Shown: positions 348-34,709 of the stretch, in pieces | Layout: every line of letters starts with the position of its first letter | Numbering within the stretch: position 1 is the stretch's first letter | Notes under the pieces: generated by a model | Seen by the model: only the letters and a program-made list of their open reading frames with translations | What the model was told of the DNA's origin: nothing | Database searches by the model: none | Program-made: the position numbers and the translations under genes | Source: a virus | IMG/VR virus record: IMGVR_UViG_3300036804_000118 | Span: 1-34,709 of that record | Length of the DNA stretch: 34,709 nucleotides | Reading direction: 5' to 3' (one strand)

Positions 348-432
348 TGCGGCCGCTCACCGAAAAGACGTGCGGACCGATCCGGATCTATGCTCGGTTT
401 CAGTGAACGACGCGCTGAAAGGACGGCGGTCC

Positions 433-3231: not shown

Positions 3232-3432
3232 TCAACGGCCCCCGGACCGGCGTACCGTCCCCGAGGTCCTCGCCGCGCCCGCCGCCGCCACCAGGCCGCC
3301 GCCGCCGCTGCCCGAGCGGGACGCCTGGGCGGGGATCGCGACCGGCAGGAACCGGCCCGTAGCGTGGTGGCGGGGCTGGGCCCGCGCCGCTGCCGCCCTC
3401 GCGGACTTCGCGCTCGCCGCGTTCTTCGCCAT
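3232..3432 (-). CDS. Small basic Ala-rich unknown protein
   Basis: A 66-residue frame from ATG 3432 (a GTG immediately precedes it at 3435), with GAGGGAG upstream as a good ribosome binding site. It is rich in Ala, Arg, Gly and Ser ('AKSARAAAARAQPRHH') with no recognisable domain. Third codon positions are almost all G or C, which favours this frame over the overlapping longer frame from 3526. It is the next gene after the initiator-like protein in the leftward early operon. No function can be proposed. Confidence 0.45.
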   Translation of the reverse strand: MAKNAASAKSARAAAARAQPRHHATGRFLPVAIPAQASRSGSGGGGLVAAAGAARTSGTVRRSGGR

Positions 3433-4939: not shown

Positions 4940-5289
4940 CACTCCTCCTCGGGGGTGCGGGTAGGTTCGGGCGCGTACCCGGCTGCGGCGAGCAGCGGCA
5001 TGACCTCGCGCAGGGGAAGCACCGCGAGGGCATCGGCCACCGATCGCTCGCCGCAGCCGGGCGGCAGGTAGACGATCAGCGGTATCTCGCCGTCGCCCGC
5101 GTAGCCGGCCGCCTGGGCGATCCACTTATGCCGCCACTCGGCCCCGGTCTTGACCTCGATCGCCACGCCGGGGGTGCCGAGGATGTCGCGGCCGGGGCGC
5201 GAGTTCGGGGTCTTCTCCGCGCCCGGCCACCATCGCGACAGGTACGCCGCGACCCACGCCGGCGCCGCGTTGCCCTTATCCCGGCTCAT
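4939..5289 (-). CDS. Holliday junction resolvase-like PD-(D/E)XK nuclease
   Basis: A 116-residue protein with the core of a small archaeal Hjc-like or VRR-like nuclease. Asp35 in 'RPGRDILGTPG' is followed ten residues later by Glu45-x-Lys47 in 'VAIEVKTG', giving the D-x9-E-x-K active site. A later helix contains 'KWIAQAAGYAG', matching the Q-containing helix of such enzymes. It would cut branched recombination or replication intermediates in DNA. It lies in the same leftward operon as RecT and the exonuclease, which supports a recombination role. A general DNA endonuclease of the same fold cannot be excluded. Confidence 0.8.
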   Translation of the reverse strand: MSRDKGNAAPAWVAAYLSRWWPGAEKTPNSRPGRDILGTPGVAIEVKTGAEWRHKWIAQAAGYAGDGEIPLIVYLPPGCGERSVADALAVLPLREVMPLLAAAGYAPEPTRTPEEE

Positions 5290-7270: not shown

Positions 7271-7504
7271 TCACGGCGGGTTAATGTCCGGGTCGTCGCG
7301 GACCGGCTCACCGAGCGCCGCGATGCGGTTGAGTCCCTGCCGGTTCAGCGCGATCAGGTGCACCCGCAGCTTCCACAGGTCGCGGACCTCGGCGATCAGG
7401 GCGGCGACGTGCTCAGCTTGCAGCGCGCCCCGGTCGTCGTAGTTGAAGCACAGGTCCGCGCGCTTCTCGATCATCTCCAGGTCGTCATTGGTCAGTCCCG
7501 GCAT
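7271..7504 (-). CDS. Unknown small early protein
   Basis: A 77-residue protein from ATG 7504, with AGGAGGG as a strong ribosome binding site lying inside the end of recT. It is helical and charged: 'LTNDDLEMIEKRADLCFNYD' followed by 'DVAALIAEVRDLWKLR'-like segments and an acidic end. It overlaps recT by 20 bases. No function is recognised. Confidence 0.7.
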   Translation of the reverse strand: MPGLTNDDLEMIEKRADLCFNYDDRGALQAEHVAALIAEVRDLWKLRVHLIALNRQGLNRIAALGEPVRDDPDINPP

Positions 7505-8555
7505 CGGTGGTTCCCTCCTGTCCGGGTTCGTCGGGAGGCGGTTCGGCGGGCGGTTCGTCGGGCTCGTCCTCGCGGCGGTCGCTGTCGCGGACCGCCCGGA
7601 GCGCATCGAGGCGCTTGAGCACGACGTCGATCTCGTCGCGGGTGAGGTGGCCGGTCGAGGTGACCTTGCGGCCCGCCCACGTCGACACCAGCGCCAGCCC
7701 TTCCTCGGGGCCGGTGATCTGGATGTCTTTCAACGCCGCGTGAAGCTTGTTCAGCTGCGACCTGGTGGGCCGGGGCGTGCCGGGCGGCGGCTGGGTTGAC
7801 TCCGGTTCGGGCGGCGGCCGCTGATCGGGCACGGTCAGCGGCGGGGCGGCGGGCAGCGCGGCGCGCGCCGCTGTGGTGCGGCGGCGCGACCCGCGCGACG
7901 CCGGCCGGTCGTCGCCGGATTCGGGGGTCGCGGCGTCGGGCGCTGCCTCGCTGCCCGCGTCGCCGTCCTCTACTTCCTCGGCGAGCAGCGGGAGGCCGAG
8001 CATGGCGTCTGCCGCGATCCAGCGGCAGACCTCGGCGGTGGCCCGCGCGACGAGCATCGACTTGGTTTGCTTGCGCCAGTTGCCGTCCGGGTGGCCGGGA
8101 TAGAGCCCCGCCTGCTTCGCCCGGTCGAGGTCCCATGTCGAAAACTGCCAGTCATCGGTCCCGGCGCGCCGCCCGCGCACGATGGCGCGGACGCTGGTCG
8201 GTTCCACCACGACGATCTCATGGCCGTGACGGAGCAGCAGCGCCCGCGCGGCGATCGCGTACATTGCGACGGTCCCGCGGATGATGACGAACGCGCGCAG
8301 CGATGCCATCGGCCCGAACTCGAGTTCCTGGCCGGCCAGCAGCACCGCGCTGATCTGCGCGACGGTGGATTCAAGGTCAAGGACGCGCTTGGACGGGTCG
8401 CGTTCTTGCGGGTTGGTCCACACCCGCAGGTGATCGGGCACGAATGCGGTGGGCGCGAGGGCCTTCGCGATACCGGCTGCGGCCTGGGCCTCCTCTGCCC
8501 AGCCGCGCAGCGACATGATCCCGGGGGCCTGGTCGCGGGGTGCTCGGGCGGCCAT
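7485..8555 (-). CDS. recT: RecT-family single-strand annealing protein
   Basis: A 356-residue protein whose residues 30-190 match the RecT family as seen in actinophages: 'ISAVLLAGQELEFGPMASLR' is followed by 'FVIIRGTVAMYAIAARALLL', a beta-rich section, 'WDLDRAKQAGL' and the signature 'KSMLVARATAEVCRWIAADA'. It would anneal complementary single strands during recombination with the neighbouring exonuclease. The C-terminal part (from about 200) is a disordered Pro/Arg-rich linker ending in a small helical domain ('QLNKLHAALKDIQITGPEEG') and an acidic tail, longer than usual. Its ATG overlaps the stop of an 11-codon leader frame (TGATG), so translation may be coupled. An internal Met at residue 14 is an alternative start. 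Confidence 0.85.
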   Translation of the reverse strand: MAARAPRDQAPGIMSLRGWAEEAQAAAGIAKALAPTAFVPDHLRVWTNPQERDPSKRVLDLESTVAQISAVLLAGQELEFGPMASLRAFVIIRGTVAMYAIAARALLLRHGHEIVVVEPTSVRAIVRGRRAGTDDWQFSTWDLDRAKQAGLYPGHPDGNWRKQTKSMLVARATAEVCRWIAADAMLGLPLLAEEVEDGDAGSEAAPDAATPESGDDRPASRGSRRRTTAARAALPAAPPLTVPDQRPPPEPESTQPPPGTPRPTRSQLNKLHAALKDIQITGPEEGLALVSTWAGRKVTSTGHLTRDEIDVVLKRLDALRAVRDSDRREDEPDEPPAEPPPDEPGQEGTTDAGTDQ

Positions 8556-10162: not shown

Positions 10163-10302
10163 CAGACCCGTCTCCACAAGATCGCTGACCGGCCGCCGCG
10201 CGCGCCCCGAAGGCGCCCGCACGAGCGGGGCAGGGTGCGGGCAGACAGCGCGCGGCGGCCGGAACTAAAGGGATCTCGGGTGTTTCGCGCCTTCCCGAAG
10301 CG

Positions 10303-10366
10303 GCGACGCCGGGGCTTTAACGCCCGTCCGGTGGGCGACGCCGGGGCTTTAGCGCCCGTCCGGTGG
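10303..10366. repeat. Two tandem 32-bp repeats with internal hairpins
   Basis: Bases 10303-10334 and 10335-10366 are 32-base direct repeats differing at one position. Each contains GGGGCTTTA followed by a CGCCC...GGGCG hairpin. A partial third unit follows. They lie in the gene-free gap (10223-10469) between integrase and the XRE gene and could be protein-binding sites controlling the early operon. Confidence 0.7.
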
Positions 10367-10420
10367 GCGTCCGGGGTGTGTCTCGCTCCCGGCAGGCGGT
10401 GAAACTGGCGCAAACGCCAA

Positions 10421-10469: not shown

Positions 10470-11921
10470 TTAGGCTGGCAGATCCTCGGTTGCGGTGAAC
10501 TCCCCGTTCGTCACGGTGACGAGCCTCTTCGTCGCCAGGATCTTGAAACCGTTCCTGGCCAGCCACGGCCCCCGCTGGTGCGGCTCGACTTCCAGCCACA
10601 GCGCGGCGTACCGGTCCCCGGTCTCGGTGTACTCGATCGTGTCGGGGACGATCACGGCGTTCATGAGCTCGCGCCGCTCAGCGCGCAGCGCCTGGTGCCG
10701 CTGCTCGTACTCGTCGTCTTCAAGGTCCATCGATGCTAGCTGTCCGGTCTCGAACTGGATCTCCGCAAGCCGCGCGTCGCGCTTGGCCTCGTTGCCGGGG
10801 ATAACCGTATGGGCCCTTACGGGCGTGTCCCACGATGCGGCGATGATGCGGTCGACCGCCGGTTCCAGAACATCGCGCCGCACCGTGTTCCCGCAGCTCT
10901 TGCGGCCCGCGCCCCGCCCGGTGCACCAGTAATACTCAAACTGGCTCTTGCGGTACTGCTCGGGGTTGCCGCTCTTTTTCCGGTACATCGGCGAGTCGTC
11001 GCAGTTGCCGCAGAAAAGGGCTGTGGTCAGGGGGGCACGGTTCTCGACGTTCCTCGGCCCGTGCTTGGGACGATTCGAGAGCGCCTTGTTAGCGCCGGCC
11101 CAGATCGCCGCATTCACAAGCGGCTCATTGCGCGACAGGGTGCGCCCGAACGTCTTGGTCTCCTCGTCCCACTCGCAGCGGTGCCCCATGTACGTCGGGC
11201 ACCGGACAAGCTTGTTTATGGAACTGGCCCACCAGCGCCGACCGGTTACCTCGTAGAGCCACGCGGCGATCATCGCGAGGCTTTCGCCGTCGATAACCCG
11301 GCCGAAGAGTTCCGGGATGATCGCCCGGCCATCGTCAGTCGGCACGAGCCAGTGATCGTATTTGACGCCAACCGACTGATAGCCGAACGGCGGACGGCCC
11401 ATGAACTTACCGCCCTCGCGCAGCTTGGCTTGCGCGCGGCGAATGCGTTCCTGCATGTGCTCCCATTCGGCGGCCGCGTGCTTGGCGTTCGCCTCCCAGC
11501 TCCACTCGTCGCCGGCGTCGCGGGGCGGCCACTGCGGTCCGTTCACTATGATCAGCCGCTTTCCGTTCTCCTCGGCCCACAGCCGGATACGCGCCTCGTC
11601 GGCCCAGCAGCCGCGGGAAAGCCGGTCATTGGAGGTGGCGAGGATGCCATCGTAAAGCGCCATCCGCTCCGGGTCCTTGACCCACGGGCGAAGTTCCGGG
11701 CGGTCCCACGGCGCGACCTTGCCGCTTTTCACGTCGGCCGCGACGTCCACGATGATGTGTTTGTTGAGGTCGGCCCACTCGCGTCCGCGCTCGTCCTGGG
11801 TTTCGATGCCGATCGACCGGAGTTCACGTCCGTTTCCATCGGTGACCTTGTTGCTCTTACGCGCTGCGAGCACTAGCCGAAGTTGCTGCGGATTACCTGA
11901 TGTGGTGGCGGAATAAGACAT
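10470..11921 (-). CDS. int: Large serine integrase
   Basis: A 483-residue site-specific recombinase of the large serine family. The catalytic domain opens 'LRLVLAARKSNK', with Ser23 as the likely nucleophile, and has the DRLSRG motif near residue 100. The recombinase domain includes 'LREGGKFMGRPPFGYQ', and a zinc ribbon carries 'FCGNCDDSPMYRKK' and 'YYWCTGRGAGRKSCGN'. A coiled-coil stretch ('EIQFETGQLASMDLEDDEYE') follows. It would integrate the phage at a host attB through attP without host factors. No ribosome binding site is visible; a TAAAAT box ends six bases before ATG 11921, so the mRNA may be leaderless. No recombination directionality factor is obvious nearby. Confidence 0.95.
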   Translation of the reverse strand: MSYSATTSGNPQQLRLVLAARKSNKVTDGNGRELRSIGIETQDERGREWADLNKHIIVDVAADVKSGKVAPWDRPELRPWVKDPERMALYDGILATSNDRLSRGCWADEARIRLWAEENGKRLIIVNGPQWPPRDAGDEWSWEANAKHAAAEWEHMQERIRRAQAKLREGGKFMGRPPFGYQSVGVKYDHWLVPTDDGRAIIPELFGRVIDGESLAMIAAWLYEVTGRRWWASSINKLVRCPTYMGHRCEWDEETKTFGRTLSRNEPLVNAAIWAGANKALSNRPKHGPRNVENRAPLTTALFCGNCDDSPMYRKKSGNPEQYRKSQFEYYWCTGRGAGRKSCGNTVRRDVLEPAVDRIIAASWDTPVRAHTVIPGNEAKRDARLAEIQFETGQLASMDLEDDEYEQRHQALRAERRELMNAVIVPDTIEYTETGDRYAALWLEVEPHQRGPWLARNGFKILATKRLVTVTNGEFTATEDLPA

Positions 11922-11956
11922 ATGTCTATTTTAACAGGTGAGCACTTATCAAGTGT
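11922..11956 (-). promoter_or_regulatory. Integrase promoter region with dyads
   Basis: The minus strand has TAAAAT at 11933-11928, directly followed by AGACAT and the integrase ATG, so transcription would start at or next to the start codon. The -35 region is weak. GACATATGTC at 11917-11926 is a perfect palindrome over the start codon, and CACTT-ATC-AAGTG lies at 11943-11955. Serine-integrase attP sites often lie immediately upstream of the gene, so attP may be within 11922-12040; this is inference. Confidence 0.45.
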
Positions 11957-12040
11957 CATGTGGTCATCTTTGAAGCCTGATCATGGGCCCTTTTCGATGT
12001 CCGATCGCGTATTCGGACCTATGCGAAAAGTGATGATTTT

Positions 12041-17955: not shown

Positions 17956-19469
17956 GCTGACCGCCAGGTGAGGGTGACCGACCCGCCGCCGGCCGCGTAC
18001 AGCGACCACACGTCCGACGCCTGCGGCGCGACGAGGAGGGTCTGCGACCCGGCGAGCACGTAGGATGCGCGGCTTTCGCCGCCCGGCGCGGTCGCGACCA
18101 GCGTGGACGTGTCGACGTTGATCGTCTCGCCGACCTGGAGCGCCGCGACGTTGATCGTCCGCCCGGACGCCAGCGCGACGAGCCGTGACTGGGTGAGGTC
18201 GCCGATGTAGGCGGCGTGCACCGGCGCGGGCACGTTGCCCTGGTTGAGCAGCACCGCCTCGTTCGAGTCGATCGTCCCGGCGTACTGGCGCGGGTACACG
18301 CGGACGATCTTCGGCGGGTACCAGAGCATGGACGCCGCGACGAGCGAGGCGGTGCCGTTCGCGGCGACGACGCGCGTGAAGCCGGGCGGGTCGCCGGGGG
18401 TGCCCGGCTTCGCGCCGTTCATCACGAACGCGAGGCTTCCCGCCCACGGGGCGCGCGGGTTGCCGGTGGGGATGGACGCGACCGCCCCGGCGCCGCTGAT
18501 CGCACGGGCGTAGTCCGATGCGCCGATGTCCCCGGCGCCGGTCAGGCCGGCGAACGTCGCCGCGCCCTCGACCAGGGTCGTCGTCGTGATGCTGATCCAC
18601 CCGTTCCCGGCGGTCATGCCGGGGCTGGGCGCGGTGGCGTAGAAAAGCCAGCTCCGCTGCGCGCTGGTGCTGTTGGCCGTCCATGCGCGCTGCGCGTAGG
18701 CGGTGCCGTTGGAGTCGGTGACGGTGACGGTCCCGGCCCCGGCGTTGGTCGTCATCGTCAGCAGGATGCGCGCCCCGGCGGGAATGTCCGCCGTGCACGG
18801 GACATTGATGGTCGCGACTCCCACGAACGTCACCGACGCTCCGCCCCCGGCGACGGCAGGCGCGGTCGTGCAGTTCACCAGGAACGCCCCGGCGGTGTAC
18901 TGCCCGGTTACCCCGGCGGCGGTCGCGATCGGCGCGTCCCATGTCGCGGGGACGGCCGGGTCCGGGCCGCCCGTGGCGGGGTGGTCGTACTTCCAGCCGG
19001 TCGTGGCGTCGCCGAGGTTGTTCAACGTGACCGACTGGTAAGGCCCGTACAGGCGCGGGTCGGTCGCGGTGACGGTGAGCTGGTAGCGGAACATCGTCGG
19101 CCCGCTGAACGTGTGCTTGAAGGCGTCGGAGTCGGCGCGGACCCGCGCGGTCATCGCCCGCCCCGCTCCGTCGATGATCACCAGGTCGGCGGGGCTCGCC
19201 GCCGCTGCCCGGACGATCAGGTCATCGCGGAACAGCGCGAGCGCCGACCGCGACCCTAGCCCGACGCCGGTTATCACGATGTCGCGCGGCCCGGCGGTCT
19301 TGGGCCCGCGCTGCGCGCCGTCCATGAGCACGAACGTGGCGTCGCGGCCGTCGTAGGGCGGCGAGTCGTACCAGCCGGTCACGTCCTCGACAACGCGGAG
19401 TATCCCGCGGTCGTCCTCGGCCGCGAGGTTGAGGTCCATGCCGTCCCAGGTCACCGGAACCGTGATCAT
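17946..19469 (-). CDS. Distal tail protein (Dit) with large inserted domain
   Basis: A 507-residue protein starting at ATG 19469 (ATGA overlap with the tape measure stop). The N-terminal 165 residues have Dit features: 'VTWDGMDLNLAAEDDRGILR', 'YDSPPYDGRDATFVLMDG' and 'RYQLTVTATDPRLYGPYQSV'. Residues about 190-380 form a beta-rich, Thr/Ala/Gly-rich insertion resembling a carbohydrate-binding module. The Dit-like galectin part resumes near 'RVYPRQYAGTIDSNEAVLLN'. Classical Dit proteins are about 250 residues, so this is an enlarged ('evolved') form that may contact host glycans. It links tail tube to tip. Confidence 0.75.
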   Translation of the reverse strand: MITVPVTWDGMDLNLAAEDDRGILRVVEDVTGWYDSPPYDGRDATFVLMDGAQRGPKTAGPRDIVITGVGLGSRSALALFRDDLIVRAAAASPADLVIIDGAGRAMTARVRADSDAFKHTFSGPTMFRYQLTVTATDPRLYGPYQSVTLNNLGDATTGWKYDHPATGGPDPAVPATWDAPIATAAGVTGQYTAGAFLVNCTTAPAVAGGGASVTFVGVATINVPCTADIPAGARILLTMTTNAGAGTVTVTDSNGTAYAQRAWTANSTSAQRSWLFYATAPSPGMTAGNGWISITTTTLVEGAATFAGLTGAGDIGASDYARAISGAGAVASIPTGNPRAPWAGSLAFVMNGAKPGTPGDPPGFTRVVAANGTASLVAASMLWYPPKIVRVYPRQYAGTIDSNEAVLLNQGNVPAPVHAAYIGDLTQSRLVALASGRTINVAALQVGETINVDTSTLVATAPGGESRASYVLAGSQTLLVAPQASDVWSLYAAGGGSVTLTWRSAWQ

Positions 19470-22189
19470 CGCGACCCGCCTCCTGCCGCCGCCCATGCCC
19501 ACTCTTTGTCGACCGCCGCCGCGACCTGAGTCTCAGACTGGGACTCGCGCGGGTAGACGTTGATCGCGGTTGCGCCGCGCCCGCCGCCGAGCGCGGAGAG
19601 CATGGCGCGCTCGTCGGCGGTCAGCCCGCCGGGCAGCAGCGGCGATACCCGCTCGGGGCCGGCCTCGCCGATCAGGTAGCGGCGGCCGGTGCGCGTGCCC
19701 AGCCCGGTCACCGGCTCGCGGACGATGCCGCCGCGTGCCATCGCGATCGTGCCCGCCAGCCTGCCCGCCTGCACGCGGCTGGTCGGGCCCACCGGCGCTG
19801 GTGTCACGGGCGCGGGGGCGCTCCTGATCAGGCCGCCGGTCACGGTGCTGAGCGCGCTGCGGACCGGCCCGAGGATGTGCGAGTTGATCCACGACAGGAT
19901 TCCGCCGAGCGCGGCCGACATGCCGTTCTTGAGCCCGTCCACCGCCGCCACGCCAGCGCTGTACGCGACCCCGGCGAGCCCGGACAGGGCGCGCGCGATC
20001 GCGCCGCCGACCCCCGACCACAGGGCCGCCGCCGCGCCGGCAATGCCAGCCCACGCCGAGCGAAGCGCGCCCACGGCCCCCGCCGCGCCGGCGGCCACCA
20101 CGCCGCGCAGCGTCGACAGCACGCCGCTCACCACCGACACGACGCGGCCCCAGGTGGACGACGCGATCGACGCGACCGCCCCGAACGCCGACGCTACGGC
20201 GTTGCGGATCGCCGTTAGGGTCCGCGTCGTCACCCCGGACACCGACGCCCACGCCGACGACACCACCCGGGAGACCGCCGCCCAGGACACGGACGCCGCC
20301 CCGACGACCGCCGCGAACGCGGCCGAGACCGCGCCGGTCACCGCGCTCGTGGCCCTCGTCGTGGCGCCGGTCACCGCCGACCAGGCGGCGCTCACGGCGC
20401 CGACTACGGCGGTCATCACAGAAGAGATCACGGCGTTCGATGCGTCGTAGGCGGTGAGGATCGCGTGATACGTCGCCTGCGCCGCTGCCGCTACGGCGGT
20501 CGCGGTCGCCTCGAAGGTCGGCACCACGCCGTTGACGGCGCCGAGCAGGATCGTGATCGCCGGGACCGCGACGGCGAGCACCATTTCCGCCAGCGCGGAC
20601 AGCGCGTTGATGACGGCGGTCGTGACCGGCATCGCCAGCTTCATGGCGAATGACAGCTCGGTGAACCCGACAGCCAGCACGGTTCCCACGGCGAGCCCGA
20701 GCGGCGCTAGCAGCGGGGTCAACTGGGCGATGATGGGGGCCAGGTCGTCGCCGATGATCTTCGCGACCGCCATGATCGGCGGGATCACCTGCTTTGCCCC
20801 GTACACCACGGCGGCGAACACGGGCGCGAGCGCCTGGACCACGCCCGTGCCGAACCCGACCAGGGCGGCCCGCAGCTTGGGGCTGGCGGCGACCACCAGG
20901 GCCACGGCGCCGACGAGCGCCGCGACGGGCGCGGACAGCCCGCCCAGCGCGGCCGCCGCCTCGGGCGCGACGCCGGCGAGCTCGCCCAGCCCGGGAACGA
21001 GCTGCAGCAGCGTCCCGGCGGTCAGCTTCCCGATGGCCTTTCCCAGCGACAGGAACGGCCCGATCAGCCCGCTGACGATCGGGCCGATCAGCGGCAGCTG
21101 CGCCAGCAGCGTCCCGCCGGCCAGCGCCGACAGGGCAGCGCTCACGGCGAGCGCGGGCGCCCCGAACCGCTTGAGCGCGGCGACGGCCGGGTCGACGCCG
21201 TTGTTCGCGAAGTTGAGCGTTGCGTCCAGCAGGTCGTTTATGCCCTTGTTTACCCAGGCGATCGCCGGGGCGAGCGACTGCATGAGCGCGTTAGTCAGCG
21301 GGGTTACGGCCGGCTCAAGCGCCTTCAGCACGACGCCGAGTTTGTTGCCCCACTCGATCGCGAGGCCGCCGCCCTCCTTGGAGATGAACGGCTCCACGAT
21401 GGCCGAGCCGATGTCGCGCATCGCGGCCTGAATCGTCTGCTTGGTGCCGACCCATGTTGTCTTCAGCCCGGCGGCCGCGCCCGCGTACTTGATCTGCATC
21501 TGCTGGACGAGGACGGTAAGCGCCTTCTGGCTGTCGAGCGTCCCCGACGTGATCGACTTGCGGACCTGCGCCGCAGTCATGTCCATGCCCTTGCCGATTA
21601 GCTGCGCGGCGTCGATTCCGCGCGTGCCCATCTCGTTAAGGGTCCGGGCGGTGAACTTGCCCTGTGACTGCACCTTGGCGAGCACGGTCACGATGCCGCT
21701 GAGGTCGTCGGCGTTGCCGCCGGTCGCCGCCACGGCGTCCTGGACCGCGGACAGGATCGGTATCACGTTCTTCGATGCGACGCCGAACCCGAGCATCTGC
21801 TGAGTCGCGGCGATGAACGTCTGCCGGGGGAACGGGCTGGTCTTGGCGAACGCCGTGATGCTCGCCATCATGTCGCTGGCGGCCTTCTGGCTGCCGAGCA
21901 CGCTCTGGAACGCCTTGGTCGACTTCTGGTAAAGGACGTTGTACGCAACGCCGGCCTTGACCGCGCTGACCAGGAACCCGCCCATGGCGGCGCCCGCCAC
22001 GACCCCGACCGCGCCGAGGGCCTTCCCGGCAGTCTTCGCGGCGCCGCCTATGCCGGTGCTGACCTGCTTGCCGATGGTCGACCCGGCGGCGGCGCCCGCC
22101 TCCTTGGAAGCGGCGCTGACCTCGGTGGTCAGGGCTCGGGTGTCGGCGGTGACCCGTACGGTCAGCCCGGCGTAGGACAGGCTAGCCAC
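19466..22189 (-). CDS. Tail tape measure protein
   Basis: A 907-residue protein from GTG 22189, overlapping the chaperone T frame by 8 bases. The N-terminus has a coiled region ('GLTVRVTADTRALTTEVSAA', 'GSTIGKQVSTGIGGAAKTAG') and typical tape-measure sections ('QKSTKAFQSVLGSQKAASDM', 'TFIAATQQMLGFG', 'LAKVQSQGKFTARTLNEMGT'). Several long hydrophobic stretches in the middle ('LIGPIVSGLIGPFLSLGKAI', 'VAALVGAVALVVAA') may enter the membrane at DNA injection. The Ala/Val/Ser-rich helical repeats from 620 to 760 set tail length. About 900 residues would predict a tail of roughly 130-140 nm by the usual 1.5 angstrom per residue rule. Confidence 0.95.
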   Translation of the reverse strand: MASLSYAGLTVRVTADTRALTTEVSAASKEAGAAAGSTIGKQVSTGIGGAAKTAGKALGAVGVVAGAAMGGFLVSAVKAGVAYNVLYQKSTKAFQSVLGSQKAASDMMASITAFAKTSPFPRQTFIAATQQMLGFGVASKNVIPILSAVQDAVAATGGNADDLSGIVTVLAKVQSQGKFTARTLNEMGTRGIDAAQLIGKGMDMTAAQVRKSITSGTLDSQKALTVLVQQMQIKYAGAAAGLKTTWVGTKQTIQAAMRDIGSAIVEPFISKEGGGLAIEWGNKLGVVLKALEPAVTPLTNALMQSLAPAIAWVNKGINDLLDATLNFANNGVDPAVAALKRFGAPALAVSAALSALAGGTLLAQLPLIGPIVSGLIGPFLSLGKAIGKLTAGTLLQLVPGLGELAGVAPEAAAALGGLSAPVAALVGAVALVVAASPKLRAALVGFGTGVVQALAPVFAAVVYGAKQVIPPIMAVAKIIGDDLAPIIAQLTPLLAPLGLAVGTVLAVGFTELSFAMKLAMPVTTAVINALSALAEMVLAVAVPAITILLGAVNGVVPTFEATATAVAAAAQATYHAILTAYDASNAVISSVMTAVVGAVSAAWSAVTGATTRATSAVTGAVSAAFAAVVGAASVSWAAVSRVVSSAWASVSGVTTRTLTAIRNAVASAFGAVASIASSTWGRVVSVVSGVLSTLRGVVAAGAAGAVGALRSAWAGIAGAAAALWSGVGGAIARALSGLAGVAYSAGVAAVDGLKNGMSAALGGILSWINSHILGPVRSALSTVTGGLIRSAPAPVTPAPVGPTSRVQAGRLAGTIAMARGGIVREPVTGLGTRTGRRYLIGEAGPERVSPLLPGGLTADERAMLSALGGGRGATAINVYPRESQSETQVAAAVDKEWAWAAAGGGSR

Positions 22190-24309: not shown

Positions 24310-24697
24310 CGGCGTCCGCCTCCCACTGCGCCGTGGCGGTCACGGTCGCGCTCATGCACGAGATGCCGTCGCCCGGCGCGGCGGTCGGGTCGGTGACGAG
24401 CCGCACCTGGGACACCGCCCACATGGCGCCGCGCACCAGCGCCGCCGATCCCTCGGCGAGGGGGCATTCCGGCGGCACGAACAGCTGCCCGCCCGGCGCG
24501 GCGTGCGGGTCGTAGGGTCCGTGCCCGCCGCCTTGGGTGTTGCGCGGGTCGCTGGCGCCCGGGGCAAGCTGGAGGCTTCCCGGGCCGGTCCAGTACGGTT
24601 CGGCGCCGGGCAGCGCCCACGCGTGGGTGTCGGCGTCGGCTGCGGGCGCGTACAGGCTCACGGTGTCGGTGCCGAGCAGCAGCCCGAGCGGCGTCAC
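24302..24697 (-). CDS. Head closure (stopper)-like protein
   Basis: A 131-residue protein from GTG 24697 (GTGA overlap). It starts 'TPLGLLLGTDTVSLYAPAAD' and contains 'GQLFVPPECPLAEGSAALVR' and an end rich in Thr and Ala. In this gene order the position between adaptor and gp10 is held by the head-closure protein. Sequence support alone is modest. Confidence 0.6.
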   Translation of the reverse strand: MTPLGLLLGTDTVSLYAPAADADTHAWALPGAEPYWTGPGSLQLAPGASDPRNTQGGGHGPYDPHAAPGGQLFVPPECPLAEGSAALVRGAMWAVSQVRLVTDPTAAPGDGISCMSATVTATAQWEADADG

Positions 24698-25069: not shown

Positions 25070-26077
25070 TTACGCGCTCGCCGTGCTCGTCTTCGAGGTG
25101 CTGGTCTTGGACGTCGCGGCTACCGTGTCCGCGCCGCCGCCGTTGCCGCCGCTCACGGGCGGAACCCACCCGGCGAGCTCGGTAGCCGCGAACGGCTTCG
25201 CGCCGTCCGGGGTCCGCTGCGTGACCGGGTTGACGATCGCGCACGCGAACCGCGCCCAGACCTTGAGCGGCGTCTGGTTGTCCTGCCACCCCGAGATGAT
25301 GACCTTGCCGGTGTCGTCAACGATGACTGCGGACGGGTCCATGTTGTAGCGGATGTCCTGCCGCACGCCGACGATCAGCGCGCCCCAGTCGCCGGTGATG
25401 AAGTTGTCGACGGCGGACAGGTCGAACGGCGTGTACGCGATCGGTACCCCGTAAAGGGTCTGCACGGTCCGCTCGTCCACCGTCGCCTCGCCGAGCAGCA
25501 GCCCGCCCTGGCTGTCGCGCGTTCCGCGGAGCATGCCCTTGACCGACAGGTCCGCCGCCGACCCGTCGACGTTCAGGCCCTGCGACTCCACCGCGCTCAT
25601 GGCCTGGTTCACGCCGTCGACGGCATCGAAGCCGGGCGGGCTCTGGATGCAGAACGCGGGGTCGACCACGCCGCCGGGCGGGAACGACGTCGGCGCGTCG
25701 ATCCCGAACAGGATCGCCTCGTCAAGCGCGATCGCGATCGCCTCGGCCAGGCGCGGGCGGACGAACCCCCACAGGTTGATGGACGCGTCGTCTAGGTACA
25801 CGTCGGGGATCGAGGTGATCGCCGCGACTTCCTCGGCCTTGAGCGTCTTGGTTCCGAGGCCGAGCGCCGCGTACGGCTTGCGGCCGCCGGCCACCGAGAC
25901 CCACCCGGCGCGCGGGAGCGACGTCGGGACGGGCATCTCGCTGATGCCGGTTCCCATGGGAACGAGGTTGGCCAGGCGCAGCACCGCCGACTGCTGCACC
26001 GCTTCCTGGATGATCTGGGTGCTGTACTCCGGGGGAATGACGCCCGAGAAGTCCAGCGGCGCGATTGGGGTTGTCAT
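25070..26077 (-). CDS. Major capsid protein, HK97 fold
   Basis: A 335-residue capsid protein from ATG 26077 with AGCGGAG as ribosome binding site. 'GVIPPEYSTQIIQEAVQQSA', 'SEMPVPTSLPRAGWVSVAGG' and 'EEVAAITSIPDVYLDD' are the N-arm and E-loop-like segments. 'AEAIAIALDEAILFGIDAP' is the spine helix, and 'GKVIISGWQDNQTPLKVWAR' is in the A-domain. It lacks a fused protease; a separate scaffold is encoded upstream. The C-terminal 30 residues are Gly/Ser/Thr-rich and may be flexible. Confidence 0.9.
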   Translation of the reverse strand: MTTPIAPLDFSGVIPPEYSTQIIQEAVQQSAVLRLANLVPMGTGISEMPVPTSLPRAGWVSVAGGRKPYAALGLGTKTLKAEEVAAITSIPDVYLDDASINLWGFVRPRLAEAIAIALDEAILFGIDAPTSFPPGGVVDPAFCIQSPPGFDAVDGVNQAMSAVESQGLNVDGSAADLSVKGMLRGTRDSQGGLLLGEATVDERTVQTLYGVPIAYTPFDLSAVDNFITGDWGALIVGVRQDIRYNMDPSAVIVDDTGKVIISGWQDNQTPLKVWARFACAIVNPVTQRTPDGAKPFAATELAGWVPPVSGGNGGGADTVAATSKTSTSKTSTASA

Positions 26078-26300
26078 TTGGCGCTCCGCTTTCAGCGTGA
26101 CAGGACTGGTCACGCCGCTTTCCGCGCCACCGGCCCGCGCTCGGCATCACGCCACTGCGCCGGCCTGGCCTCGGCGTCACGCCTCGTGAAGCACCCGGGT
26201 TCGGCTACCGGCTGCCGCTGGCATCACGCCGCACGGCATCCCGCCCAGTATGCAGCGGCGACGCGCCGAATGTCACCCGGGGCGGCTACGATGCCCGGCG
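26078..26300 (-). promoter_or_regulatory. Gene-free leader of the capsid gene with repeats
   Basis: This 223-base gap upstream of the capsid gene holds the motif TCACGCC at 26110, 26147, 26177 and 26224 (GGCGTGA on the minus strand), three of the copies within the longer GGC(A/G)TCACGCC. A candidate promoter, GTGACA (26276-26271) with 18 bases to CATACT (26252-26247), would give the capsid extra transcription beyond the scaffold. No protein-coding frame is convincing here. Confidence 0.4.
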
Positions 26301-28079: not shown

Positions 28080-29486
28080 TCATGCGGCTTCGCTGGCCGG
28101 CGCGGCTGGCGCTTGCGGCGGCGCGGGCGCGGCCGGGGCGGCCGGGGCGGCCGGGGCCGGGCTTGTCTCGGACTGGGACGGGTCGGCGGCGATGATCTTT
28201 TCCCATTCCTCGATTTCCTGCGGGGTCGCGCCCCAGCGCTGCCACAGCACGCGGCGCGGCACGCCTAGGGTCGCCATCTTGACCAGCGCGTCGACGCGCT
28301 GTCCCTCGCTGCGGGTTTCCATGTCGGCCCAGATCACTTCGGCGGAAAGGTCGGTCGCGGCCGGGCTTCCCGTCAGGGTGAACGCGAGCCGCAGCGCTTC
28401 CTCGTGCGCCTCGCCGATGTGCCGCGCCCGCCGGCGGCACTTCGCGACCAGGCCCGCCTCGGCGGCCTTGATCGCGTCGGCCGACAGGTTGATCATCTCG
28501 CCGAGCAGGTAATGCGGCGGCGTCTGGGTGATCGCCGCGAGGCCCTGCACGTCCTGTTCCACCGACGCGAGGTAGCCGGTCAGCGTCGACTCGGGGAACG
28601 ACCCGAACCGCCCGTCCGGTGCCTCGTTGGTAAGCAGCCGGTTAGCGCCGACGTCGAACGGGCGCGCGACGCTGACCGCCTGGCCGGCCGGGGTCTTGAC
28701 GACCTCGCGGGCGATCTTGATCCCCGTCGCCCAGATCTGCCGGAACGCGCCGTAGTCCGTCGCCACCATGCGGTTGAAGATCGTCGTGTGTATGCGGTCC
28801 TGGATGCTGATGGCCGAGTGCAGTTCCGACCGGGGCGGCTTGAGTGTCCGCGGCTGCGGCACGACCTCGACAAGGCCGATGAACCCCGCCGGGTTCGCCT
28901 CCACGTACGGCCCGGTCTCGCCGGGGAACCACGTCCAGACCTCCTCGGGCAGGATCAGCACCTCGATCACCCCGGACAGGCCGCCGATCTCCCACGGCTC
29001 GGCGCAGTAGCGCTTGTACCCGGCGATCCGCCGGCGCCGCGACCCGGGCGCGTACAGCACCGTCGCCTGCATCGCTGACTCGCCGGTGATGGACACGCCG
29101 GTCGGGTTGTCCTCGTCGGGCTGCACGAGCTCGAACGCGCTGCCCTGCACGAGCGCATCCGTCTGGATCAGCTCGGCGTCGGCGTCGAGGCTGTTCGCCT
29201 GCCAGATCGCCCATGCGGCGTCGGACTGCTCCGGGGTGCCGAACCGGAAGCCGGTGACCTGGAGCCGCTCGGCGACGGCGTTGACGACCAGTTCGCACCA
29301 GTTCGCGCCCGACTCGGCGAGGAACGTCCGGAACGTCTGCCGTTCCTCGGTGTCGAGCAGCGCGATGATCCCCGCCTCAAGGTCGTAGTGGGCCTGGTAC
29401 GTCGCGGCGCGCGCTGCCTGCGCGTCGAGTTTCGCCGATGCCATCTCGCGCAGCCGCGCCGGGCTGATGTCCGTGGGTGCGTCCAC
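28080..29486 (-). CDS. Portal protein (SPP1 Gp6-like)
   Basis: A 468-residue portal that forms the dodecameric ring at one capsid vertex through which DNA enters and leaves. Signature parts are '[20 protein letters not shown]', '[20 protein letters not shown]', '[20 protein letters not shown]' and '[20 protein letters not shown]'. The C-terminal 40 residues are Pro/Ala-rich. GTG 29486 is chosen because AAGGGAGG precedes it; the open frame extending upstream overlaps the large terminase and looks spurious. Confidence 0.9.
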
Positions 29487-29503
29487 CGGGCGGCCTCCCT
29501 TCG

Positions 29504-31123
29504 CTAGAAACCGGCCGCCGCGTAGTCTTCGCGCTGCGGCTCCGCGTGGCGTATCGCGCGGTCGAGCGCCATGATGGCGGCCACCATCGAGTCGATCTTC
29601 TCGGCGCTGCGCGCCTTGTCGGGCTTCAGGTTCCCGGCCGGGTCCATCCGGACGATCAGGTTCCCGGCCTGCCACCGCGCAACGGGGTTGCCACCGTGGC
29701 GGTAGCTGCCCGCCGTGACGAGCCGCAGGAACTCTTTCGTGGGCCCGGACATGGAAGCGAAGCCCTGACCAGTCTGTATCAGCGGGAATCCCTCGTCCAG
29801 CAGGTCGAGTGACAACTGGGTCGCGCCCCACCGGTCGAACGCGATTTCCTTGATGTCGTACCGCTCGGCGTCGTCGCGCATTGCCTCCTTGATCGCCTCG
29901 TAGTCGATGACGTCTCCCTCGGTCACGGTGATCAGCCCGTTAGCCGCCCACACCGACGCCTGGCCGCCCGTGCGCCGGTCGAGTCCCGTCATGGCCGACG
30001 CGGGCGCGAACACGCGGAACAGCGCATCGTGGCCGCCCTCGCCGTCTGGGAAGTCCAGCGCGTAGCTGGCCAGGTCGATCGTGGAACCGAGGTCAAGGCC
30101 GCCGTAGCACGCGCGGCCGCCCAGGTCCGCGGTGATCGGCGCGGCCCGCCCGTCCCAGACGGGAAGGTCGATCGCGCGGCCGGCCTGCACGGACTGCTGG
30201 TTGAGGCGGTACTGGCGGAACGCCCGCTCGGCGGCCGGGTTCGCGATCGCCTTATTGCACTCGTCGGCGAGGACCTGCGGGTCAAGGTAGTCGCCCAGCG
30301 CCGGGTTGGCGAGCTTCCACGTCTCCGGGTCGGTCCATTCCGCGTCGGGTGGCGCGGCGTGCAGCACCACCAGGCGGCGCCGGTCGAGCGCGGGGTCATC
30401 GAGCACCTTTTCCGACCACGCGCGCTCGGACGCGGCGAAGCCGCCCGGCTTGTTGTCGGCGGTCGTGACGAGCAGCATGAGCGGCTGCGCGCGGGTGCCG
30501 AAGCCGGTCCGCAGCGCGTCGTACAGGTCACGGTCGGGCTGGGTCAGCAGCTCGTCAATGTAGGCGGCGTGCGGGTTGGGGCCGAGCGCGCCCATGGCGT
30601 CCCCGGCGGTGATCGCGAAGAACGACGCCGTTTTCGGGTCCACGATGCGCCGCGCCGCGCGGGCCAGCGTCAGGCGGCGGCTGAGCACCGGCTGAAGTTC
30701 GACCATCCGCACGGCGACGTTGAACGCGAGCGCCGCCTGGTCTTTGTCCAGCGCCAGCCCGTAGACCTCGGCGGCCTCCTCGCCGTCCGCGCACGTCAGG
30801 TAGAGCACGATCGCGGCGATCAGCTCCGTCTTGCCGTTCTTCCGCCCGGTCGACAGGTAAAGCTCCCGGTAGCGGCGCACGTAGCGGCCGCGCCGCGCGT
30901 CGTACTCCACCGTCCCGAACAGCGGCGTCAGCACCTCGTCGATTTCCCATGCGGCGGGGATGAACGGGCGCCGCGCCCAGTCGCCCTTGGTGTGGACGAG
31001 CAGCTCGGCGAAGAACTGCAGGACGTGAGCGACGCGCGGCGTGCAAAGGTGCTCGCCGCGCTTCATGCAGATCTCGCCGTCGAACGTGTGGCCGCACGGC
31101 GGGAACCGGCGGCGGTCGGTCAC
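29504..31123 (-). CDS. terL: Terminase large subunit
   Basis: A 539-residue packaging motor and nuclease. The ATPase domain has Walker A TGRKNGKT (92-99), Walker B AAYIDE (186-191) and a coupling segment near 'PLMLLVTTADNKPGG'. The RNase H-like nuclease carries 'GGLDLGSTIDLASYALDFPD', 'IAFDRWGATQLSLDLL' and a C-terminal 'KARSAEKIDSMVAAIMALDR', placing the acidic metal ligands in the expected order. GTG 31123 begins five bases after the HNH stop. It is far from the small subunit gene on the other strand. Confidence 0.97.
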   Translation of the reverse strand: MTDRRRFPPCGHTFDGEICMKRGEHLCTPRVAHVLQFFAELLVHTKGDWARRPFIPAAWEIDEVLTPLFGTVEYDARRGRYVRRYRELYLSTGRKNGKTELIAAIVLYLTCADGEEAAEVYGLALDKDQAALAFNVAVRMVELQPVLSRRLTLARAARRIVDPKTASFFAITAGDAMGALGPNPHAAYIDELLTQPDRDLYDALRTGFGTRAQPLMLLVTTADNKPGGFAASERAWSEKVLDDPALDRRRLVVLHAAPPDAEWTDPETWKLANPALGDYLDPQVLADECNKAIANPAAERAFRQYRLNQQSVQAGRAIDLPVWDGRAAPITADLGGRACYGGLDLGSTIDLASYALDFPDGEGGHDALFRVFAPASAMTGLDRRTGGQASVWAANGLITVTEGDVIDYEAIKEAMRDDAERYDIKEIAFDRWGATQLSLDLLDEGFPLIQTGQGFASMSGPTKEFLRLVTAGSYRHGGNPVARWQAGNLIVRMDPAGNLKPDKARSAEKIDSMVAAIMALDRAIRHAEPQREDYAAAGF

Positions 31124-31439: not shown

Positions 31440-31592
31440 GTCAGCCAGTCTGCGCCGCGCGCGGAGCGGGGGGCAAGAAAACGCAGAGGGGCGCGGCCCG
31501 CCACCACAGCTAAACCGCGCCCCGTGGGCCGGCGAGGAACGCTCGCCACCACCGCGTTGATCATATCGCGGGCGAAGCGGAGACTGTGACGC
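31440..31592. promoter_or_regulatory. Divergent intergenic region with hairpin
   Basis: No gene lies between the leftward HNH gene and the rightward gene at 31593. A 9-bp inverted repeat (GGGGCGCGG at 31488-31496 with CCGCGCCCC at 31515-31523) and AT-rich bases around 31559-31565 (TTGATCATA) suggest promoters facing both ways. The start of late transcription for the structural operon may lie here. Confidence 0.35.
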
Positions 31593-31967
31593 GTGACCAC
31601 CGCCCCGCCACCGCCCCCGCCGTCGTTCACCTGCCCGCGCTGCGGCCGCGTCAGCAATCACCCCAAGGACGTCGACGCCGGGTACTGCGGCGCGTGCCGT
31701 GACTGGACCCGCGACGCGTTGCGGATGCGCCTCTACATCGGCGGCCAGGTCGCCGACGAGGAATGGATCAGCGACCCCGGCCTAGCCGAACAGGTCTCCG
31801 CGCGGCACGTGGCGATCGCCGCCGACGCCGACCGCGCCGGCCAGGCGTGGCTGATCGAGATCTTCAACCCGACCGCGCCGCAAGAGTCGGCTTACCTGCG
31901 GTTCGGGACCGACCGCGACGGCATGGTGCTGCCCGTCGAGGTCGATCCCGGGTTCTTCGGCAAGGAA
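31593..31967 (+). CDS. Zinc-ribbon unknown protein, stop codon missing
   Basis: From GTG 31593 about 125 residues look coding: a Pro-rich start, 'FTCPRCGRVS' and 'GYCGACRDW' (two CxxC pairs, a likely zinc ribbon), then 'LRMRLYIGGQVADEEWISDP' and 'AWLIEIFNPTAPQESAYLRF', ending near 'DGMVLPVEVDPGFFGK'. Third positions are GC-rich to this point. No stop follows: the frame stays open to 33305 while running antisense to real leftward genes. The 3' end appears to have been cut off by a join at about 31965, or its stop was lost. Function is unknown. Confidence 0.55.
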
Positions 31968-32402
31968 TTACAACTGGGCCAGCGCGTCCTCGATCGCCTC
32001 GGCCAGCGCCATCGGAGCCATGAAACGGTACTCGCGACCGTCCATCACCGTCACGCGCACAGTCCCGGGACCCGACGCCGCCGACGCGATCCGCGCGAGC
32101 GGGATCATGACCGGCGTCCACACGCCTTTCTTGCGGCCGTTCGGGTGCACGACGTTGCCGCCGCCGACCCACAGCACCCGTCCGTTCCACGTCGCCTGAT
32201 GTCCCTTGATCACGCCGTCCGGGCCGGTCGCGCGCGCGATCCGCTCGCGGCGCTCGGCGGCCCAGCGCTCAGCCTGCCCGGCGGCGGCCGCCAGCTTCGC
32301 CGCCTCGGCGTCGCTGCGGCTGCGCTGCCACTGCGCCTCCGCGTCGCGCGCGTGGTCCAGTCCCTTGGCGCCCAGTTCTTTAAGTCGCGTCCACTTGCTC
32401 AT
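31968..32402 (-). CDS. Unknown protein with coiled-coil N-terminus
   Basis: A 144-residue protein from ATG 32402 with GGAAGGAAC as ribosome binding site. The N-terminal 60 residues are a charged helix ('LKELGAKGLDHARDAEAQWQ', 'RSRSDAEAAKLAAAAGQAER'). The C-terminal part is beta-rich ('GHQATWNGRVLWVGGGNVV', 'RVTVMDGREYRFMAPMALAE') like a small SH3 or PH-like domain. It follows the G7C4 repeat array, so its leader RNA, if transcribed from the right, would be unusual. No family is recognised. Confidence 0.7.
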   Translation of the reverse strand: MSKWTRLKELGAKGLDHARDAEAQWQRSRSDAEAAKLAAAAGQAERWAAERRERIARATGPDGVIKGHQATWNGRVLWVGGGNVVHPNGRKKGVWTPVMIPLARIASAASGPGTVRVTVMDGREYRFMAPMALAEAIEDALAQL

Positions 32403-32457
32403 GTCGTTGGTTCCTTCCCGCTTGCGCGTGTGAATCTCGCTGACGTCGGCGGAAAAC

Positions 32458-32564
32458 TTCCGTCTCCGTTTTCGTTTTCTTCCGTTTTTCCTTTTTGTTT
32501 TTTTCGTGGGGCCCCCCCGGTTGGGGCCCCCCCGACGGGGCCCCCCCGACACGGGGCCCCCCCG
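32458..32564. repeat. Polypyrimidine tract plus four GGGGCCCCCCCG repeats
   Basis: Bases 32458-32506 are almost purely pyrimidine on the plus strand with runs of four to seven T. They are followed directly by exact 12-base repeats GGGGCCCCCCCG starting at 32508, 32523, 32537 and 32553. On the minus strand this is four CGGGGGGGCCCC units, then an A-rich purine tract. The layout recalls iterons beside a melting element of a replication origin; alternatively it may be an RNA or DNA G-quadruplex element ahead of the gene at 32402. Confidence 0.8.
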
Positions 32565-32829
32565 AGAGCACCGCGCCGCCGTCGCCGACCGCGCCGGCCG
32601 GCCCGCCCGAGCGCCTGGCCGGGCGCGCCGCCGTCCATGCCGCCGCCCGAGCGCATGAGCGGGTCCTGGGCACGGCCACGGAGGCCGCCAGGACCGCCAC
32701 AGGCGAGCCGGCGCCCATCGGCGCGCCCATGGCCGATCCATCCCAAAAGGGCGCGCTGGGCCGGTCCTGGGCGCCTCCGGGCGCATGTCCGCGGGAAGCG
32801 CCGCCCGCCGTGCGCGGGAACGCAAAGGT
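32565..32829. other. No confident gene, three leftward frames open
   Basis: All three minus-strand frames are open here, and all run through the repeat array, so openness is not evidence of coding. Frames from 32730 and 32746 begin with ATG and have GC-rich third positions, but their Gly/Pro/Arg/Lys-rich products look like repeat translation ('GGPRVGGAPSGGPQPGG'). A short gene for a basic, Gly-rich protein cannot be excluded. Confidence 0.3.
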
Positions 32830-32856
32830 CCCTCCCGGCGCAATGCGCCGGGAGGG
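32830..32856 (-). terminator. Hairpin terminator after small leftward genes
   Basis: CCCTCCCGGCGCA (32830-32842) and its exact complement (32844-32856) surround one base, giving an 11-12 bp stem with a CAAT-type loop. On the minus strand ACCTTTG follows, a weak U tract. It begins just after the stop of gene 32867-33013. Confidence 0.65.
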
Positions 32857-32866
32857 TCGGCCTCAG

Positions 32867-33013
32867 TCACTCGCCATCGGCGTCCAGCGCCGCCATGACG
32901 GCAGCGTCCAGCCGCTGCTCGTCCGCGCTGCGCTCGCACGGCGGCGCCGACCACGGCGCCGATTCTTCGGCGAGGAACCACGCGATGAACCGCCGCAGGA
33001 CGTTACTCGCCAT
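32867..33013 (-). CDS. 48-residue protein with duplicated C-terminus
   Basis: ATG 33013 lies inside the end of the upstream gene and encodes 48 residues: 'ASNVLRRFIAWFLAEESAPW', a Cys, then 'DEQRLDAAVMAALDADGE'. The last 15 residues match the end of the preceding gene ('RRLDAAIMAALDGE'), and the DNA is also a near-repeat, so a tandem duplication is likely. Function is unknown. Confidence 0.55.
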   Translation of the reverse strand: MASNVLRRFIAWFLAEESAPWSAPPCERSADEQRLDAAVMAALDADGE

Positions 33014-33371
33014 CCAGCGCCGCCATGATCGCGGCGTCCAGCCGCCGGGTGATCGCGCGGCGCTCGCTGATGTAGAGTTCGGCCGCCGCCCGCAGCGCCG
33101 GCGACCGGCCGAGCAGCATTTCGGCGTTCGGCAACGACCATTCGACGTCCGAGTCGATCGCGTCGGCGATGCAGCGGACGATCATGCCGTCGTCGGACGC
33201 GGGAATGTTGTCGGTCACGACGAAGTGATCAGTGTCGCCGTCGAACATGATGATGCACAACGTTCCGTCGCCGTCCGTGGCGTATTGCGCATCGGCTTCG
33301 CCTAGGCGCAACTCGTCAAGGTCGGCGGCGCTGACGCTACGGAAGGCCGCCAGGATTTCGCTTTCGGTCAC
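33003..33371 (-). CDS. Unknown protein
   Basis: A 122-residue protein from GTG 33371 with GAGAGGAA as ribosome binding site. It starts 'TESEILAAFRSVSAADLDEL' and has 'TLCIIMFDGDTDHFVVTDNI' and 'MIVRCIADAIDSDVEWSL', a small alpha/beta fold, then a basic helix ending 'RRLDAAIMAALDGE'. No family is recognised. Translation may couple to the overlapping 48-residue gene. Confidence 0.65.
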   Translation of the reverse strand: MTESEILAAFRSVSAADLDELRLGEADAQYATDGDGTLCIIMFDGDTDHFVVTDNIPASDDGMIVRCIADAIDSDVEWSLPNAEMLLGRSPALRAAAELYISERRAITRRLDAAIMAALDGE

Positions 33372-33466
33372 AAAGGGTTCCTCTCGCTGGGATCTTCGGA
33401 CGCGGACATGACCGGTCCCGCCGACCATGCGCCCGTTCGGTCGCATGATCAGCGGCGCCGTCCATG

Positions 33467-33547
33467 TCAGACGGCCGCGACGGGCAGCAAGATCATGCTG
33501 AGAATGGCGACGGCGAACACAGCGGACAGCAGCAGGGCGTAGCGCAT
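33467..33547 (-). CDS. 26-residue membrane micropeptide
   Basis: ATG 33547, preceded by AAAGGAAATTCC, encodes MRYALLLSAVFAVAIL followed by SMILLPVAAV. It is a single hydrophobic span with one positive residue at the N-terminus. The good ribosome binding site favours translation. Larger frames covering it are arginine- and proline-rich and look spurious. Function is unknown; small membrane peptides of phages sometimes modify the host envelope. Confidence 0.5.
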   Translation of the reverse strand: MRYALLLSAVFAVAILSMILLPVAAV

Positions 33548-33629
33548 TGGAATTTCCTTTGGTGGTGGCGTGGTGGTGTTCGGCCCAGTCCGGGGGCCGG
33601 GCGCGTGCCCGGCCCCCCGTTCGGATTGC

Positions 33630-34094
33630 TCAGCCTTCGGCGTTCGGACGCACGTAGTAGTTGATCTCGGCGCCGGCCTCAGCGATCCGCGCAAGCTTGC
33701 GCATCTCGGCGAGCATGTAGTCCTTGACCGACTCGCGGACCGCGACGGGACCCGTCGCCGCCGTCGCCGGCTTGTGGACCTTGTTAGCCGTCTCGATCGC
33801 CGTCGCCTCGTCGTAGCCGCCGGCCATGAGCACCTTGACGAGCGCGGCGCGCGCTGCGTCGGCCTCTTCGCTGCTCTGCTCGATCGACCACTTGGACGGG
33901 TCGACGTCGATCAGAACGTGGAGGTTGATCCGCATGGACTCGGTAACCGAGATCTCAATCGGCGCGGCTTCGGTCGTGGTCTCGGTGGTCTCGGTCACAG
34001 TCGCCTCGGTCGGCGTGGTCTCGGTCACGGTCGTCTCCTGGTTGTCGGTGGTGGCGTCGATAGCAACAGCGGCGGTGTTCTTGCGAGCGGGCAT
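33630..34094 (-). CDS. Unknown protein with Thr/Glu-rich N-terminus
   Basis: A 154-residue protein from ATG 34094 with AAAGGAAATGC as ribosome binding site. Residues 15-45 are low-complexity Thr and Glu ('TVTETTPTEATVTETTETTT'), and the rest is alpha/beta ('RINLHVLIDVDPSKWSIEQS', 'RESVKDYMLAEMRKLARIAE'). It resembles no known family. It is the first leftward gene at the right end and may be driven by the promoter near 34165. Confidence 0.7.
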   Translation of the reverse strand: MPARKNTAAVAIDATTDNQETTVTETTPTEATVTETTETTTEAAPIEISVTESMRINLHVLIDVDPSKWSIEQSSEEADAARAALVKVLMAGGYDEATAIETANKVHKPATAATGPVAVRESVKDYMLAEMRKLARIAEAGAEINYYVRPNAEG

Positions 34095-34163
34095 TGCATT
34101 TCCTTTTCATTCGCGCGATCCGGCCGGCCGGCCGATCCGCTTTCGTTCTTCCTTACATTTTCT

Positions 34164-34169
34164 ATTTTA
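34164..34169 (-). promoter_or_regulatory. Candidate -10 box shared with the integrase promoter
   Basis: The minus strand reads TAAAATAGA here, the same nine bases found directly before integrase at 11933-11925. It sits in an AT-rich island upstream of gene 33630-34094. The -35 region is weak. The shared nonamer suggests a common promoter type for these two leftward transcripts. Confidence 0.4.
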
Positions 34170-34265
34170 GCCGGTGACCAGCGGAAATGCAGATCCTAGG
34201 CACGTAGTCTGGGTCACATCAGCGGCTTTCATCAGGCCGCAACGACACTCGGAACAAACACCGGA

Positions 34266-34447
34266 CGCAGTTCTCATTCGCAATTCCACTCGACTGCAAT
34301 CGCATTCGGTCGAATGCAATCGGCCCAGGCAAGACCGCCAGTTCGTTCGGTCGGCGGCGCGCTGCAATCCCGTTCGGTCACCGGCGCCGGCGCCGGCCAA
34401 GACCGCCAGTCCGTTCGGACCGGCGCCGACTGCAAGTCCGCTCGGAC
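34266..34447 (+). repeat. Right-end array of 17-18 bp repeats
   Basis: Bases 34171-34709 hold no convincing gene. Related elements occur at 34266, 34294, 34336, 34362, 34404 and 34430 with consensus CYGCAATCCCGTTCGGTC (variants CGCCAGTCCGTTCGGAC). Further TTCGG and CTCGG copies continue toward the end. A perfect hairpin (GCATTCG, GT, CGAATGC) lies at 34302-34317. The CGYTCGG core matches the outward-reading strand of the left-end elements, so the two arrays face outward symmetrically. Confidence 0.6.
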
Positions 34448-34682
34448 CCGCCATCCGAACGCGACCGAGGCCGGTCCTATGTTCGGGCCCGGCATGCGAT
34501 CGCCGGCGGCGGCGCGCGACACGGGAGCATGCGCCGATCACGACCGAACCTGCGCTCGGCCGAACAGTCGCTCGGCTTCCGCCCGAATTTCCGCTCGCCG
34601 AGTTTTAATTCGGGCGATGTCGAGTCGAACCGGGCCCGAGCTCGCGTTCGGCGGGCACACATTCGGGTGGGGGGGGGCCTAT

Positions 34683-34709
34683 CGAGTGCACACTCGCACG
34701 AGCGGGGTT
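34683..34709. repeat. Right terminal palindromes and inverted repeat
   Basis: CGAGTG-CA-CACTCG (34683-34696) is a perfect hairpin, overlapping CTCG-CA-CGAG (34693-34702). Bases 34695-34708 are the inverse of bases 1-14 at 13 of 14 positions. A run of nine G lies just before at 34669-34677. Confidence 0.6.

Follow-up and report, generated by a model that had tools for sequence, protein, structure and literature searches.

Four exact copies of a 12-base GC-rich unit lie against a 49-base AT-rich tract ahead of the gene P0001 in the genome of a bacterial virus, and the two together may form a lineage-specific cis-regulatory element, an operator and leader, for that gene. The window, meaning the whole stretch of DNA that was analysed, is the full 34,709-base record, with a GC content of about 72%. 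The existence of the array in this record, at a frequency far beyond chance, is confirmed; its role in control is a tentative reading, to which a probability of roughly 0.35 was given. Since 56 related fragments are without the pattern, the region looks like a lineage-specific control region and not like a proven replication origin. If it is a control element, it provides a compact and testable case of a new operator array arising between otherwise conserved phage neighbours.

Genome context and the leader of P0001

To judge by its genes, the record is a near-complete temperate siphophage, and its main features are collected in Table 1. The gene at 2005-2460 is called a probable small terminase (TerS) gene from its sequence; it and the gene for the ParB-like protein are far from the large terminase gene (terL) and on the opposite strand. 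A near-perfect 32-bp tandem duplication (GGCGACGCCGGGGCTTTAACGCCCGTCCGGTG twice) is found at 10302-10369, directly downstream of the integrase gene. ARAGORN predicts a tRNA-Ser at 24535-24620 on the plus strand, within the leftward structural genes, that is probably a false positive. The longest homopolymer of the window, a G9 run at 34669-34677, is near the contig end and may be an end artefact.

Table 1. Positions of the array, its neighbours and other features of the window
Feature	Position	Strand	Remarks
Array of four exact GGGGCCCCCCCG units (CGGGGGGGCCCC on the minus strand)	32508-32564		spacers GTT/AC/ACAC
49-base AT-rich tract, abutting the array	32459-32507		pyrimidine-rich on plus, purine-rich (A-rich) on minus
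P0001, 144 aa	31968-32402	-	coding score; homologue in L007; structure model and Foldseek
Non-coding gap holding the array, 464 bp	32403-32866		no clear coding signal
Hairpin, 13-bp perfect, directly after the small upstream ORF	32830-32856	-	terminator-like, poor T tail
Small upstream ORF, 48 aa	32867-33013	-	
Gene B, 147 aa as listed	33003-33446	-	coding score
P0003, convergent	31593-31967	+	zinc-ribbon-like CPRC...CGAC motif
Large terminase (terL)	29504-31123		
Portal	28080-29831		
Major capsid	25070-26113		
Tape measure	19466-22189		
Serine integrase	10470-11921		
RecT-like annealing protein	7485-8555		
RusA-like resolvase	4939-5289		
Replication-like gene	3504-5033		weak match to phrog_1882 (function unknown)
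Probable small terminase (TerS)	2005-2460	+	early operon; 85% identical in L005
DNA methyltransferase	972-2015		
ParB-like protein	about 430-975	+	early operon

A preliminary description of this DNA had placed the array and tract in the leader of the gene at 32402. Coding statistics and the homologue in a related phage indicate that this gene, P0001, is real, and both elements are indeed in its leader, with about 56 bases between the end of the tract and the ATG and a ribosome-binding-like GGAAGGA just upstream of the gene. P0001 is predicted to consist of a long N-terminal helix and a PH-like domain (mean pLDDT 88, from a two-sequence alignment); the best Foldseek matches of the model are PH, PTB and FERM domains, all weak. 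The 48-aa ORF, gene B and P0001 all run leftward. A coding reading of the array was rejected: frames through 32470-32830 score poorly, and the 570-codon plus-strand frame that runs from P0003 through the array (GAPPVGAPPTGPPRHGAPP), in which no stop is met until 33305, has no coding signal past about 31960.

The repeat array and its tract

The units occupy 32508-32519, 32523-32534, 32537-32548 and 32553-32564, so that four exact 12-base repeats at a period of 14-16 bases abut the tract, as had been described. No further exact copy of GGGGCCCCCCCG occurs anywhere in the record, and in 60 order-3 Markov simulations no 12-mer was present more than twice within 60 bp, against the four copies observed. 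The cores are identical at 48 of 48 bases, including the G4 and C7 runs, and it is the 2-4 base spacers that differ. The probability that three random differences on 57 bases would all hit the nine spacer bases is 0.003, a rough figure because the units were picked for exactness. The array has no homopolymer run longer than seven, and its spacers contain A/T bases. The four G7 runs reported for the minus strand are also present.

The tract has the reported length and pyrimidine bias (43/49; T31, C12, G6 and A0 on the plus strand, the six G's interrupting), and no other 50-mer of the window is as pyrimidine-biased as that of its region (44/50, against 37 for the runner-up). It had also been called the most AT-rich homopolymer-like tract of the window, but at 33/50 it ranks second to the 34/50 of 11912-11961.

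Relatives and database comparisons

With terL as query, L005, L006 and L007 were found first (75-80% identity), and the total later came to 80 loci. The relatives compared are the 56 contigs with a terL identity of at least 50%, which together carry 149 kb of DNA upstream of terL (37 of them with at least 1.5 kb). The block GGGGCCCC is found in none of the 56, anywhere in the locus, and none has an AT-rich strand-biased tract upstream of terL. The nearest relative, L005, is without P0001, and its entire 27-kb contig has neither a GGGGCCC or GGGCCCC run nor a comparable AT-rich strand-biased tract. L007 is the only relative found with a recognisable P0001 homologue, and a search with the alignment of the two sequences returned L007 again and none besides. 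The order gene A, P0001, HNH, terL is common to the window and L007, in which the gap before P0001 is 86 bp long and has a GC hairpin, with no array and no AT-rich tract. The preliminary description held that related phages keeping both flanking genes without the repeats, and with no effect, would speak against its proposal; L007 goes part of the way, in that it keeps these four genes and is without the repeats.

The homologue of P0003 in L005 is at 514-861 on the minus strand, next to TerS in the early operon. P0003 has therefore changed place between these phages, and the neighbourhood is mosaic; the P0003 cassette carries about 110 bp of upstream DNA, and in the window the gene runs opposite to the late genes. 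The change of place marks the interval between P0001 and the HNH gene as a site of exchange, and the array is on the opposite side of P0001 from it. The non-coding DNA at 34170-34709, ahead of gene A, contains repeated TTCGGTC-type dyads. At the matching place, L005 carries 48-bp repeats (3330-3432) in which GTGACGCAGATCACCGAG and ATTCGGACATCCGAAT occur, and L007 begins with sequence that resembles this region. These are candidate repressor sites.

Rfam gave no match at gathering thresholds. DNA similarity searches found nothing for 31500-34709 among phages and nothing for 32403-32870 in plasmids; the latter segment had weak partial matches to phage coding DNA only (E 0.04-0.1). Viral contigs yielded neither two close exact GGGGCCCCCCCG copies nor a T-run plus GGGGCCCC pattern. 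Three-fold GGGGCCCC arrays do occur there, in 14 stretches, several of which are tandem repeats, hairpins or G/C junk, and none of the 14 has a comparable AT tract beside it. No terL relative was found among genome contigs.

A candidate control element for P0001

Read on the sense strand, the four identical GC-rich units (GGGGGGGCCCC) stand directly upstream of the A-rich tract, with the P0001 ATG following. In the proposed arrangement they are duplex sites: a DNA-binding protein, of phage or host origin, would bind all four and thereby set P0001 transcription, and the A-rich tract may act as an upstream promoter (UP-like) element or as an easily opened stretch. Since the array stands ahead of a gene, local control of P0001 is the favoured role. 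The exact repetition far beyond chance, the invariant cores between differing spacers, the long non-coding gap, the good ribosome-binding-like site, the hairpin that closes the upstream ORF and the gene order shared with L007 are all in keeping with a control element.

Several observations stand against this reading. No sigma-70-type promoter was found, the minus strand of the 464-bp gap has no TANNNT, and with no promoter consensus found, the mechanism of control is one that we infer. The start-to-start distances of 15, 14 and 16 bp are not helically phased. The genome has no second copy of the site, although one would be expected for a regulator with several targets, and the relatives manage without the array.

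Alternative explanations

It is possible, if on balance somewhat unlikely, that the array is a neutral and recent tandem-repeat expansion in a fast-changing spacer, produced by slippage or template switching of one GC-rich unit and functionless, with the AT tract an unrelated piece of low-complexity DNA. None of the relatives examined has the array, units 2 and 3 have GGGGCCCCCCCGAC in common, as expected of tandem copies, the gap is far longer than that of L007 and also holds other imperfect GC-rich repeats, and the adjoining region is mosaic, with P0003 elsewhere in L005. However, it is the spacers that vary, and the homopolymer runs, where slippage should strike first, are the same in each of the four units. 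Invariant cores of this kind favour a duplex site that is recognised over an expansion in decay. That so extreme an AT tract should adjoin the array by coincidence is also unlikely.

An unlikely explanation is that G/C-only and T-rich low-quality sequence was written into the contig during sequencing or assembly. The idea of a poly-G artefact comes from a scan of draft genomes for paired blocks and from general knowledge; no citable paper on it was found in the literature. The scan, for the pattern GGGGGGGCCCC-N1-9-GGGGGGGCCCC, gave at least 118 loci, and 116 of the 118 loci listed have a locus end within 300 bases, N's beside them, or a run of at least nine G/C within 100 bases. In one locus (L070), at the end of a contig, the same G/C blocks come after a stretch rich in T and G. 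The array in the window, in contrast, is internal, its units are exact, its spacers contain A/T and no run exceeds seven, and the gene order on both of its sides matches L007. This shared order places the array before a gene and not at an obvious misjoin. If the array were an artefact after all, it would call for caution with G/C-block sequences in the virus records of metagenomes: in draft genomes the pair pattern lies, among the loci listed, almost wholly in G/C junk.

Decidedly unlikely is an RNA element in the P0001 leader, either a G-quadruplex or GC hairpins, that blocks translation or shapes mRNA decay. A quadruplex requires four runs of three or more G's with short loops, and the sense strand of P0001 (the minus strand) carries four runs of G7 with loops of 9, 7 and 8 bases. 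The tests of the earlier quadruplex proposal disagree. ViennaRNA with its quadruplex term prefers a seven-layer quadruplex (-71.8 versus -50.7 kcal/mol), an energy taken as extrapolated beyond measured stacks, but G4Hunter gives 0.77 over the 57-base array, below the default threshold of 1.2 (PMC8036883), a low score because C4 follows each G7. Without the quadruplex term, GGGGCCCC blocks of different units form GC stems of 8 bp with one another. The folding energy of the leader is 2.45 s.d. lower than that of shuffled sequences (z -2.45), a modest excess, and the GC blocks are followed by an A-rich unstructured stretch and then the ribosome-binding-like site. Against an RNA role, the C4 of every unit pairs with G and would oppose a quadruplex, which itself favours a duplex site over an RNA structure, as does the identity of the cores, slippage-prone G4 and C7 runs included, between differing spacers. 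Transcription through the array can at most be presumed. An intrinsic terminator was considered and rejected, as the GC array has no following T run on either strand; a terminator scan gave only a weak plus-strand hairpin, at 32448-32464, ahead of the T-rich tract.

It is likewise decidedly unlikely that the array is a recently acquired iteron-type element outside an initiator gene, as in a transplanted or accessory origin, or else a seven-tetrad quadruplex switch in the leader of the PH-like gene, in either case confined to one lineage.

A lambda-type replication origin, with iterons beside an AT-rich melting region, is very unlikely here. The preliminary description proposed an origin on the strength of its layout. 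That layout of repeats beside an easily melted tract is present and lambdoid-like (PMC7466680): the array resembles ori-lambda in repeat number, adjacency and AT-rich tract, and a search around the replication-like gene turned up no iteron array. No test favoured the origin itself. The fold predicted for the adjacent P0001, a long helix plus a PH-like domain, is unlike that of an initiator. DnaA-box-like sites show no enrichment over shuffles, and in relatives the DNA upstream of terL has neither the array nor the tract, although the L005 contig is without most of the replication region. The GC-skew check suggested earlier also went against an origin at the array: the cumulative minimum is at 6797, beside recombination and replication genes, and the maximum at 31496. 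GC skew is a weak guide in phages.

Least probable is that the repeats near HNH and terL are recognition sites for packaging (cos/pac): the array is about 1.4 kb upstream of terL, and some relatives have other short direct repeats in the non-coding DNA upstream of terL, but these are unrelated to it in sequence, most relatives are without any there, and the array is separated from HNH by P0001 and P0003. One such set, CAGCGCGTGT in about 5.7 copies at about 2708-2764 of the relative L171, directly after TerS and apparently non-coding, is a possible packaging-site repeat.

Comparison with known systems

A lambda-like origin comes nearest in layout. In the origin of phage lambda, an AT-rich region flanks four iterons (PMC7466680), and in the window, too, four direct repeats directly adjoin an AT-rich stretch. 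Ori-lambda lies inside gene O, whereas the array in the window is neither within nor beside an initiator gene. Its repeat is also unlike that layout in being 12 bp long and GC-only, in having no skew minimum at its site and in being missing from relatives.

In high-GC phages, such as L145, intrinsic terminators are built on GGGGCCCC stems, and the blocks in the window are likewise able to pair with one another. Unlike those terminators, the stems in the window have no T run on either strand, and on the sense strand it is an A-rich tract that follows.

Cluster K mycobacteriophages have start-associated and extended start-associated sequences of unknown function, some with inverted repeats (PMC3203893). 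The start-associated sites are of 13 bp (GGGATAGGAGCCC), number 11-19 per genome, are spread over gene starts and are conserved across relatives (PMC3203893). Unlike these sites, the repeats in the window form one array of four with a different sequence, not of the GGGATAGGAGCCC type, and no other copy; what the two have in common is the placing of short, well-conserved repeats before phage genes.
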